Shown here: in pieces, positions 24,237-27,769 of the stretch | Position numbering within the stretch: the first letter of the stretch is position 1 | Layout of the letters: each line of letters starts with the position of its first letter | Assembly (NCBI GenBank): GCA_938016515.1 | Contig: CALILP010000013.1 | Span: 1 to 45,585 of the forward strand | Direction: 5' to 3' | From: an uncultured Paracoccaceae bacterium | GTDB lineage: Bacteria; Pseudomonadota; Alphaproteobacteria; Rhodobacterales; Rhodobacteraceae | Length of the DNA stretch: 45,585 nt | Made by a program: the position numbers and the translations under genes | The notes under the pieces: model-generated | The model's database searches: none | What the model was told of the DNA's origin: nothing | The model's input: only the letters and a program-made list of their open reading frames with translations

Positions 24237-24262
24237 AAAGCCCGGCCAAAAGACCGGGCTTT
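24237..24262 (-). terminator. Rho-independent terminator of leuD
   Basis: AAAGCCCGG (24237-24245) pairs with CCGGGCTTT (24254-24262) across an 8-nt loop. Read on the minus strand it ends in TTTTT. It is 25 bp past the leuD stop and closes the leuC-to-leuD transcription unit. Confidence 0.85.
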
Positions 24263-24287: not shown

Positions 24288-24893
24288 CTAAACCCAAGGC
24301 CGCGCAGCGGATGCCTGTGCCTCAAACGTGTCAATTGAGGCCGCCTTTTCCATTGTCAGACCGATATCGTCCAAACCATTCAGTAAGCAGTGCTTCTTGA
24401 AGGTATCAACCTCAAACGAGAAAACTTCGCCATCCGAAGAGGTCACCGTTTGGGCCTCAAGGTCCACTTCGATCCGGGCGTTAGCCCCCTTTTCGGCGTC
24501 TTTCATCAAAGCGTCCCGCTGATCTTCGGGCAACACGATGGGCAGGATGCCGTTCTTAAAGCAATTGCTATAGAAAATGTCGGCAAAGCTGGTTGAGATC
24601 ACACACCGGATTCCGAAATCAGCAATCGCCCACGGCGCATGCTCGCGTGACGATCCACAGCCAAAGTTATCGCCGGCCACAAGAATCTGTGCGGCGCGAT
24701 AAGCAGGTTGGTTCAAGATAAACTCAGGAATTTCATCACCGTCCAGCGTGAACCGCATTTCGTCAAAAAGGTTGGCTCCAAGGCCAGAGCGTTTGATCGT
24801 CTTCAGGAATTGCTTTGGGATGATCATATCCGTGTCGATATTCACTAGCGGCATCGGCGCGGCAATCCCGCTGAGTGTTGTGAACTTTTCCAT
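24288..24893 (-). CDS. leuD: 3-isopropylmalate dehydratase small subunit
   Basis: This 201-residue protein is the swivelling domain of isopropylmalate isomerase. It begins with [20 protein letters not shown], contains [15 protein letters not shown] near residue 75 and [20 protein letters not shown] near 100, as expected. It pairs with LeuC to isomerise 2- to 3-isopropylmalate. An AGAGGA site precedes its ATG. It is separated from leuC by three unrelated paralogs that take up about 1.4 kb, although the two subunits are normally made in equal amounts. Confidence 0.96.
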
Positions 24894-24941: not shown

Positions 24942-25406
24942 TTATGCAGTGGCCAACGGTCGTTGGCTTTCATAGCGCGCTTGAATGGTGCGCAGGCGCG
25001 CGTTGAGCTTTGTTAGATCAATGTTGAAATGCAGCTTCTGGCCCTTCTTGGTCTTCGCGGCCCATGCACGCGCGATCCGTGCGGCGCGGGCTTTGGCAAG
25101 CATATCTGTTTGCCAGACCTTGCTAGTGACCCAACGCCCACCATGAGACGTCCCTTGCAACGGCCCCAGAATGCCCCGTTCGGCAAGGTGTTCCATCACC
25201 GCGACCGCCTGCTCTGGAGACATATTCGCGGCCTTGGCCAACCCCCACACGCTGAATACAGACCGCGTTTGCGCATGCATGATCGCAGCATGCACAGAGG
25301 CCTTGCTGACTGGCGCAACCCTGGCGGCTTTTGCTAAAATCGGCGCGGGCAAGAACGGCGTTGTCGCTGCCGCCCCAAATAGCCCAAGGAACTTCCGGCG
25401 TTTCAT
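24942..25406 (-). CDS. Tat-signal/winged-helix-like paralog 3
   Basis: This 154-residue protein is the third of three tandem paralogs between leuC and leuD. It starts with a twin-arginine-type signal, KRRKFLGLFGAAATTPFLPA. A helical stretch (VHAAIMHAQTRSVFSVW) follows, then a winged-helix-like core (GLAKAANMSPEQAVAVMEHL with AERGILGPL). The TSKVWQ segment and a basic, helical carboxy terminus rich in Ala, Arg and Lys come next. It is the most diverged copy. Its ATG overlaps the stop of paralog 2 by four bases. I know of no assigned function. Confidence 0.8.
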   Translation of the reverse strand: MKRRKFLGLFGAAATTPFLPAPILAKAARVAPVSKASVHAAIMHAQTRSVFSVWGLAKAANMSPEQAVAVMEHLAERGILGPLQGTSHGGRWVTSKVWQTDMLAKARAARIARAWAAKTKKGQKLHFNIDLTKLNARLRTIQARYESQRPLATA

Positions 25407-25870
25407 GCATGCACCCCGCTATGGCACCGCGGAGATAAAATCAGACCATTCTGGGTGCAGATGTCATGCAAGTGCGCAAACAATGCAGAAACCTTTGGCT
25501 GTGCCTGTTTCTGTGCGTTTCTCTCTTGGGTCTTGCGCGCCTGATCCGGGCGCTTTTGCGAAGTCCGTTTCAAGCCCCAGATGTCGTTTGTGAAAATCCT
25601 GCTAGAGGCACGCACCGTCCCCGGCCGTGTCGGGTTCAGAACCCCAAGCAACCCTTCCGAGGACATCTGACGCACGATGGCGTCTGCCTGTGCGGTCGAA
25701 ATCCCGATATGCTTGGACATGCCGGTTACGCTGACCAGCGGAAACCGCTTGGCATGTGCAATTGCCAACTCATAGCTGGTGCGCGAATAGCCCGATGCCG
25801 ATCCGACCGCTGGTATCATTGGAGCCGCAATCGCAGACCCAATCAGCCTTAGAAAGCTACGTCTTTGCAT
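25403..25870 (-). CDS. Tat-signal/winged-helix-like paralog 2
   Basis: This 155-residue protein is the middle copy. The signal is QRRSFLRLIGSAIAAPMIPA. The core SYELAIAHAKRF then VSVTGMSKHIGISTAQADA and QMSSEGLLGVL lines up clearly with paralog 1. The segment VRASSRIFTNDIWGL and the C-terminal helix ALFAHLHDICTQNGLIL also have direct counterparts there (AVSNILKPDAWGL and LLAHLRRICVGHGMPL). The linker before the last helix is very basic. It is 12 bp after paralog 1 and overlaps paralog 3. The shared pattern indicates tandem duplication, then divergence. Function is unknown. Confidence 0.8.
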   Translation of the reverse strand: MQRRSFLRLIGSAIAAPMIPAVGSASGYSRTSYELAIAHAKRFPLVSVTGMSKHIGISTAQADAIVRQMSSEGLLGVLNPTRPGTVRASSRIFTNDIWGLKRTSQKRPDQARKTQERNAQKQAQPKVSALFAHLHDICTQNGLILSPRCHSGVHA

Positions 25871-25882
25871 CGTCTCTTCTCC

Positions 25883-26362
25883 TCAAATCGCGACTGGCAC
25901 ACGCAATGGCATCCCATGCCCCACGCAAATCCGGCGCAGATGCGCCAGAAGCTCTGACAAATCAGGTTCACCAAAACGCCGTTCGTGCGACGCCTCTGAC
26001 ATCCGCGACCGCCGCGCATCCGATCGCGCTTTCCGCCGGCCCGCATCAAGCCCCCATGCATCAGGCTTCAGAATGTTGCTGACCGCCCGTACGTTGCTGC
26101 CAGTGATACCGACCGGCTTCACAAGCCCTGCCGATGACATTTCGGAAATCATTGCCTTGGCTTGAGCAGGTGTCACCCGCAAACGCCGCGCGATACCTGC
26201 AGCGGACACATGCGCATGGGTGCGCGCATGAAAAACCGCCAGCCCGTAGGTATAGCGATTGTAGACCGCAGCAGCAGGTGCCGGTGACGCAGCCACTGGC
26301 AAGGCGGGTGCAGCCACAGCCGCCCCCAGCATTGTCAAAAAACTGCGCCGCTTCATGGTCAT
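25883..26362 (-). CDS. Tat-signal/winged-helix-like paralog 1
   Basis: This 159-residue protein is the first of the three copies, starting three bases after the leuC stop. It has an RRSFLTMLGAAVAAPALP Tat-type signal (twin Arg at residues 5-6) with an A-x-A-like end near 27. The helix-turn-helix-like stretch VSAAGIARRLRVTPAQAKAM then ISEMSSAGLVKPVG (about 52-85) resembles MarR-type winged helices. It is followed by RAVSNILKPDAWGL and an Arg-rich linker. An ATG six bases further in (26356) is an alternative start. A DNA-binding-like fold behind an export signal is unexpected. Confidence 0.8.
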   Translation of the reverse strand: MTMKRRSFLTMLGAAVAAPALPVAASPAPAAAVYNRYTYGLAVFHARTHAHVSAAGIARRLRVTPAQAKAMISEMSSAGLVKPVGITGSNVRAVSNILKPDAWGLDAGRRKARSDARRSRMSEASHERRFGEPDLSELLAHLRRICVGHGMPLRVPVAI

Positions 26363-26365
26363 GAC

Positions 26366-27769
26366 CTACATCATCTCCCGCACGTCAGTCAGCTTGCCGG
26401 TGATCGCAGCAGCCGCCGCCATCTGTGGTGACATCAGGTGCGTGCGTCCACCCCGGCCCTGACGGCCCTCAAAGTTGCGGTTGGATGTGGCTGCACACCG
26501 CTCTCCCGGTGCCAATTGATCTGGGTTCATCGCCAGACACATGGAACAACCCGCCAGACGCCATTCGAAACCGGCGTCCTTGAAGATATCGGCAAGGCCC
26601 TCTTCTTCGGCTTGCGCGCGCACAAGGCCGGACCCCGGAACGACCATCGCCCGGCTGACAGCTATTTTCTTGCCCTTCAGGATCGCAGCAGCGGCGCGCA
26701 AATCCTCGATCCGGCCATTGGTGCATGACCCAATAAAGACCGTGTCGATGACGATGTCAGACAACGGAGTGCCCGGCGTCAAGTCCATATAGTCAAGCGA
26801 CCGCTGGGCCGCGCCAACTTTGCCGCCCTCAAAATCGGCGGCGGCGGGTACAGTTGCAGTGATCGGCAGGACATCCTCGGGCGAGGTGCCCCACGTCACG
26901 ACGGGTGCGATGTCTTCGCCTTTAATCGTCACCACTTTATCGAAGTGTGCGCCTTCATCGGTGAATAGCGTTTTCCAATACGCGACTGCTGCTTCCCACT
27001 CTGCACCCTTGGGTGCCTGCGGGCGGCCCATGCAATACGCGAAAGTCTTTTCGTCCGGGGCGATCAAGCCTGCACGTGCGCCGCCTTCAATGGCCATGTT
27101 GCAGACGGTCATACGACCTTCCATCGACAGATCACGGATAGCTTCGCCACAATATTCAATGACATAGCCAGTACCGCCAGCCGTCCCGGTCTCGCCGATC
27201 ACGGAAAGGGTGATGTCTTTGGCAGTCACACCGGGGCGCAGTTTGCCAGTGATCTCGACCTTCATGTTCTTGGATTTCTTCTGGATCAGCGTTTGCGTGG
27301 CCAGAACGTGTTCCACCTCAGAGGTCCCGATCCCGTGGGCCAGCGCGCCGAATGCACCATGGGTGGCTGTGTGGCTGTCGCCGCACACGACAGTCATGCC
27401 GGGCAAAGTCCAGCCCTGCTCTGGCCCCACGATATGCACGATGCCCTGACGGACGTCAGAGACCGGGTAATAGTGAATACCGAAGTCCTTGGCGTTTTTG
27501 TCCAAAGCTTCGACCTGCACGCGGCTATCCTCGGTCATAGTAGCGGCGTTCGCGCGGTCCAACGTCGTTGGAACGTTGTGATCCGGAACAGCAATCGTTT
27601 TATCCGGCGCGCGCACAGACCGACCTGCCATGCGCAGACCCTCAAAGGCCTGCGGCGAGGTCACCTCGTGAACCAGGTGCCGGTCGATATACAGCAGGCA
27701 GGTGCCATCCTCGGCCTCATGCGCCAGATGCGCGTCCCAGATTTTATCGTATAGCGTTTTGGGGGACAT
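26366..27769 (-). CDS. leuC: 3-isopropylmalate dehydratase large subunit
   Basis: This 467-residue aconitase-family protein has the three cluster cysteines in [14 protein letters not shown] (near 345) and the paired CSMC of [18 protein letters not shown] (near 405). It also has [20 protein letters not shown] near residue 130. It binds a [4Fe-4S] cluster and, with LeuD, isomerises isopropylmalate. Start at 27769 follows a GGGAGAGG ribosome site. The upstream 190 bp hold two short overlapping ORFs and a terminator-like hairpin. The downstream neighbour starts three bases after its stop, so the next three genes must share its mRNA. Confidence 0.96.

Follow-up and report, generated by a model that had tools for sequence, protein, structure and literature searches.

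Winged-helix folds normally act inside the cell. By sequence profile, the closest described relative of the proteins studied here is the gamma domain of FtsK (PF09397; PDB 2ve8, 2ve9, 2j5o), which ends a DNA motor and carries in its recognition helix a GYNR stretch, whose residues presumably read the FtsK DNA site. The winged-helix core is also common to the MarR family (PF12802, PF01047), and a weaker profile match leads to the ribosomal protein eS25 (best E=0.0012), which has no Tat signal. The Tat pathway transports folded proteins. One of its substrates is CueO, a cofactor-loaded oxidase with a signal peptide that combines RRxFL, an alanine-rich stretch and LP ahead of the likely cleavage site.

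Here, we analysed a stretch of 45,585 nucleotides from an uncultured Paracoccaceae bacterium (the window), in which three small paralogous genes lie between leuC and leuD. We put the probability at roughly 55% that they encode winged-helix adaptors that the Tat pathway delivers to the cell envelope; they would fold inside, be exported and serve as periplasmic or inner-membrane binding modules. No description of such a family appeared among the entries listed by a literature search of open-licence PMC papers.

The leuC-leuD locus and its relatives

All genes of the locus are encoded on the minus strand. The upstream neighbour leuC (26366-27769), encoding the large subunit of isopropylmalate isomerase (NCBIfam TIGR00170, NF004016), is followed after 3 bp by copy 1 (25883-26362, 159 aa), after a further 12 bp by copy 2 (25403-25870, 155 aa), with a 4-bp overlap by copy 3 (24942-25406, 154 aa) and after 48 bp by leuD (24288-24893), which encodes the small subunit (TIGR00171, NF002458). 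The sequence-only reading had described three genes of 154-159 codons between the isomerase subunits with the same 3-bp and 12-bp spacers and 4-bp overlap, and its coordinates are exact to the base. The RRSFL or RRKFL signals it had named were found as RRSFL, RRSFL and RRKFL in copies 1, 2 and 3, and the AHL-x2-IC pattern it had noticed is present in copies 1 and 2. Identity to copy 1 is 38% for copy 2 and 29% for copy 3. Shine-Dalgarno-like sequences precede copy 2 (GAGGAG) and leuD (AGAGGAA), with weaker ones ahead of copies 1 and 3.

A terminator scan revealed no terminator-like site on the minus strand from the end of leuC to the start of leuD. Two weak minus-strand sites lie within leuD and a longer one, a hairpin with a T run at 24237-24262 (minus), follows it and is the likely transcript end; the six sites of the whole scan are no excess over shuffles (mean 4.8, sd 2.0). 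Because of the hairpin behind leuD and the lack of minus-strand sites between leuC and leuD, the five genes are likely to form one transcript.

The leuC-x-leuD order, which the sequence-only reading had proposed to look for in relatives, recurs in 17 of the 19 named loci from GTDB genomes, with one to four copies in Sulfitobacter, Loktanella, Yoonia, Aliiroseovarius, Roseobacter, Flavimaricola and uncultured Rhodobacteraceae; five of the 19 loci come from genomes that are also present in other samples used here. The two remaining loci, L239 from Silicimonas and L241 from a member of the Paracoccaceae, lie elsewhere in a common neighbourhood. In L239, as in L185, copies of the leuC-leuD type stand beside pnp, while L241 shares the upstream neighbours and its contig ends.

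Within the genus of the window (56 genomes), leuC is directly followed by leuD in 31 genomes, where two to five bases separate the last leuC codon from the leuD start, stop included. Intact family members occupy the gap in eight genomes, remnants in two and other inserts in four. Six further genomes carry there a lipoprotein-like open reading frame of about 110 aa (L057, L066, L068, L069, L070, L093), and in five the gap measures 86-89 bases and contains a long inverted repeat (L064, L074, L076, L077, L078). The interval between leuC and leuD resembles a general site of insertion.

At the family level, a profile search of 394 genomes matched 67 at E<=0.001, from which we kept the 23 with a best match above 50 bits; the other 44 reached at most 31.3 bits. 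Seven of these weak matches were read (L166-L172) and all seven contain the FtsK gamma motif, while several others cover the signal only. A second search of the 394 genomes returned the same 23 and additionally G479. Outside leuC-leuD we found at least seven neighbourhoods, with neighbours checked by name in six of them, one example each, and by eye in the rest. Recurring homes are dprA-tldD, argG-msrA, a site downstream of ettA, pnp, the vicinity of rnhB and a DASS transporter. The sequence-only reading had seen in the locus a tight linkage to amino-acid synthesis. The gene order bears this out, but the functional link is weakened by the seven or more other neighbourhoods and by the 31 of 56 genomes in which leuC and leuD adjoin each other. 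A role specific to leucine is unlikely, given the members elsewhere and the absence of the family from most genomes.

A tree of 62 rows places copy 3 in a 16-row clade (100/99) and copy 2 in a nine-row clade (98/95); the copy-1-like rows are the remainder and form no clean clade. Since the copy-2 and copy-3 clades each span genera, the kinds of paralogue are, judged from this tree, older than the genera. In the multi-copy loci that were read, the copy-3 clade lies nearest leuD. Among the eight three-copy loci, the order after leuC is 2-1-3 in six and 1-2-3 in the window and in G032. Whole-gene dN/dS was finite in 13 of 15 family pairs and ranged from 0.04 to 0.28, with two pairs saturated; for comparison, leuD gave 0.02-0.05 in five of six pairs. 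With orthologues in several genera and purifying selection acting on them, the set of three paralogues is, by these sequence comparisons, more than chance.

The winged-helix core and the C-terminal tail

Copy 1 is predicted to consist of a Tat-type signal (residues ~1-26), a winged helix (~33-98) and two C-terminal helices (105-130 and 136-148). Its structure model shows helices at 36-48, 54-61 and 65-77 and strands at 51-53, 81-84 and 92-95, corresponding to a three-helix core with a two-stranded wing. The first 30 residues are loose (block pLDDT 48-59), residues 31-80 reach 84-94 and the wing 65-71. Copy 2 has the same order of secondary-structure elements in its model, and the architecture of copy 3 is assigned by alignment. 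The structure predictions for copies 1 and 2 thus agree with the winged helix that had been read from the letters, while its assignment to the MarR type was not supported at the sequence level, the fold search being compatible with it. MarR_2 matches copy 1 only weakly (13.5 bits against a cut-off of 27, E=0.08), and although Foldseek returns several MarR structures, alignments over the longer stretch have an rmsd of 18-33 and so fail to reproduce the dimer helices of MarR.

FtsK gamma was the best match of a PDB profile search (positions 37-95, E=1.4e-4; 2j5o, 2ve8). We searched a profile built from 36 diverse members (A7) against the PDB and against 289 genomes of the class. It matched 14 of the 288 other genomes at E<=1e-6 (E=1.6e-9 to 9.0e-7). 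The matched frames are 474-1157 residues long, and the matches begin at model positions 26-37 and never extend to the signal. Nine of the 14 were read, and all nine contain the FtsK gamma motif 39-54 residues ahead of the stop. A direct comparison with an FtsK gamma profile, for which 25 of 30 loci had passed a motif filter, gave E=2.9e-6 and a probability of 88%, one-on-one and with no correction for database size.

With Pfam at E<=0.1, FtsK_gamma matches ten and MarR_2 seven of the 36 members; at E<=1 among the 34 members of another alignment (A3), FtsK_gamma, Fe_dep_repress and Ribosomal_S25 tie at seven each. The best single Pfam match of copy 1 is Fe_dep_repress and not FtsK_gamma, for which it scores 17.1 bits against a cut-off of 30.6, and copies 2 and 3 do not match the Pfam FtsK_gamma model. 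At the level of sequence profiles, FtsK gamma and not MarR is the nearer relative of the core. FtsK gamma and the family differ in context, as FtsK gamma ends a motor and the family proteins are free-standing (154-159 aa in the window), with an export-type signal in front and a helical tail behind. Moreover, alignments show that the GYNR stretch is replaced in the family, and since it is not kept, the proteins are not expected to read FtsK DNA sites.

No Pfam or NCBIfam model spans the whole protein, and none of the searches made returned a homologue with a described enzymatic role, an outcome that would have counted against the sequence-only reading. An enzyme or an otherwise described protein was rejected as a candidate, as all NCBIfam matches lie far under the curated cut-offs. 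The same applies to a defence system or a phage origin: PADLOC gave no match, PHROGs gave weak matches only, one of them to an FtsK/SpoIIIE-like phage family (E=0.3), and searches of plasmids and phages with copy 1, and of viral contigs with the alignment A5, returned no relatives.

The tail carries a variable cysteine pattern. At least two cysteines occur within the last 35 residues in 47 of 86 family rows, and in 45 of these 47 a pair is spaced by exactly 11 residues, as in copy 2 (HLHDIC...SPRC). A single C-terminal cysteine is found in 14 rows and none in 25, so 39 rows lack the full pair, including copy 1, which has kept one cysteine of the pattern, and copy 3, which has none. The exact spacing fits an oxidising compartment, and in rows with the pair a disulphide is a fair guess.

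The three window copies are very basic, with a pI of about 11 and a net charge beyond residue 25 of +11 to +15. Among 15 rows from outside leuC-leuD, the corresponding charge ranges from -11 to +5 (seven negative, one zero, seven positive), and the leuC-leuD rows L019-L021 are also net negative. An acidic tail for the members outside leuC-leuD was considered and dropped: most leuC-leuD rows are more basic than they are, yet taken together they are not acidic.

The export-type signal

Of 86 family rows, 83 carry the motif RRx[FLM] among their first 20 residues, though row identity to copy 1 drops to 18%. The three exceptions are two database entries without an N-terminus and one true RW variant, a paralogue at L018:4996-5457 that is otherwise intact. 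The family shows the sequence features of Tat substrates, namely RRx[FL], a short basic N-terminus and a moderately hydrophobic stretch behind it. At a threshold of E<=1, 16 of 34 members match the Pfam model TAT_signal (PF10518); copy 1 scores 19.2, below the curated cut-off of 22.7. In the PDB profile search positions 1-25 of the family match the CueO signal peptide (9e04_H, E=8.5e-4). Together, these matches speak for the predicted Tat-type signal of the sequence-only reading. RRxFL, the alanine-rich stretch and LP ahead of the likely cleavage site are shared with CueO, whereas the cargo differs, being an oxidase there and a small winged helix here. TatC is encoded in the source genome.

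Selection on the signal was compared with that on the rest of the protein in seven close pairs, which are non-independent and come from eight loci (three pairs among L019-L021, four among L242, L245, L246, L247 and L249 of Sulfitobacter/Roseobacter). For residues 1-25, dN/dS was 0.06-0.11 in six pairs and 0.53 in one (L242/L249); the core of the same pairs gave 0.04-0.20 and the tail 0.26-0.76. Outside this set, the signal gave 0.30 for copy 3 of the window and L017 and 0.23 for copy 1 of L173 and L231, the remaining pairs being too close or saturated for values per region. For the most part, the signal appears to be kept about as strictly as the core, and the tail less so. The conserved motif, the compact small domain and the cysteine pair of many members would fit export by Tat.

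Some members speak against export. Besides the RW variant, frames in two genomes (L178:3881-4903, L237:3004-3999) run without a stop into leuD, which would place LeuD behind the signal unless it is started internally. AAGGAAA or AAAGGA, resembling a Shine-Dalgarno sequence, precedes the leuD start in these two loci, and internal initiation of LeuD is possible. A member that adjoins dprA (L200:4422-5216) runs in frame into a GNAT-like acetyltransferase, named by eye. Both partners are expected to be cytosolic, which counts against the Tat-export reading, as does the absence of the family from most sampled genomes. On the same side stand the 39 rows without the full cysteine pair, the higher signal dN/dS of some pairs (0.53, 0.30 and 0.23), the TAT_signal score of copy 1 and its best single Pfam match to Fe_dep_repress.

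In an alternative reading, the proteins stay inside, either cytosolic or held by an uncleaved N-terminal anchor at the inner face of the inner membrane, and regulate genes by binding DNA or RNA, perhaps those of the leu operon itself. The in-frame read-throughs, the winged helix with its pI of about 11 and the sub-threshold matches to DNA-binding families would suit such regulators. We nevertheless regard this as unlikely, as the full Tat motif is conserved under mostly strong selection, GYNR is lost and members lie near many genes without a relation to leucine.

Possible roles of the family

The reading as Tat-exported envelope adaptors builds on the gene order, the RRxFL signal under purifying selection, the winged helix predicted for copies 1 and 2, the nearest sequence kin and the paralogue clades. 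From these we infer where the proteins go and what they might bind. Small and very basic, they would fold in the cytoplasm as an FtsK-gamma-type winged helix, be exported in the folded state by Tat and act as binding modules in the periplasm or on the surface of the inner membrane, that is as protein adaptors or through contacts with anionic polymers, and not as gene regulators. For the domain itself we favour protein contact, because it lacks the DNA-reading stretch of FtsK and members from other loci show no general excess of basic charge; given the high pI of the window copies, nucleic acid or other polyanions may also be bound. The three paralogues are old and have stayed adjacent, so a division of roles or a mixed complex is probable.

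The leuC-leuD gap would be a favoured harbour that offers steady co-expression, with no sign of a role in leucine synthesis. Since the family is sporadic and found in other neighbourhoods, leucine synthesis is probably the harbour and not the function. We further suggest, tentatively and at less than even odds, that a bacterial lineage put a Tat signal ahead of an FtsK-gamma-type winged helix and multiplied it into an exported family with lasting paralogue classes, partly in tandem and possibly forming a mixed complex. If exported, this would be a winged-helix family whose workplace is the bacterial envelope, where the fold is not expected. It would also offer a small and testable Tat cargo, and a recurrent way for core operons such as leuC-leuD to host lineage-specific genes.

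A signal followed by a basic winged helix related to FtsK gamma may also suggest periplasmic nucleic-acid binders that aid the uptake or protection of DNA, for example in competence or the uptake of gene transfer agents, and one recurring locus adjoins dprA (L139, L191, L200). This explanation is improbable, more so than regulators that stay inside: beyond residue 25, three of the four dprA members measured in L139 carry a net negative charge and the fourth has +2, nothing evident connects the other loci with uptake, and GYNR is not kept. Most doubtful is that these are nearly dispensable, fast-turning small genes of no fixed role that land in tolerated gaps such as leuC-leuD, since the sporadic occurrence (23 of 394 family genomes), the remnants in two genus genomes, the stops inside the sole match of G543 and one of the two matches of G191, the lipoproteins, inverted repeats and other inserts in the same gap and the leuC-leuD-type copies beside pnp are set against a dN/dS of 0.04-0.28, paralogue classes kept across genera and the lack of relatives in the plasmids, phages and viral contigs searched.

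Tandem copies of the family are not confined to leuC-leuD. At L139:5090-7631, a tandem array of five members separates dprA from tldD and marks a second hot spot.
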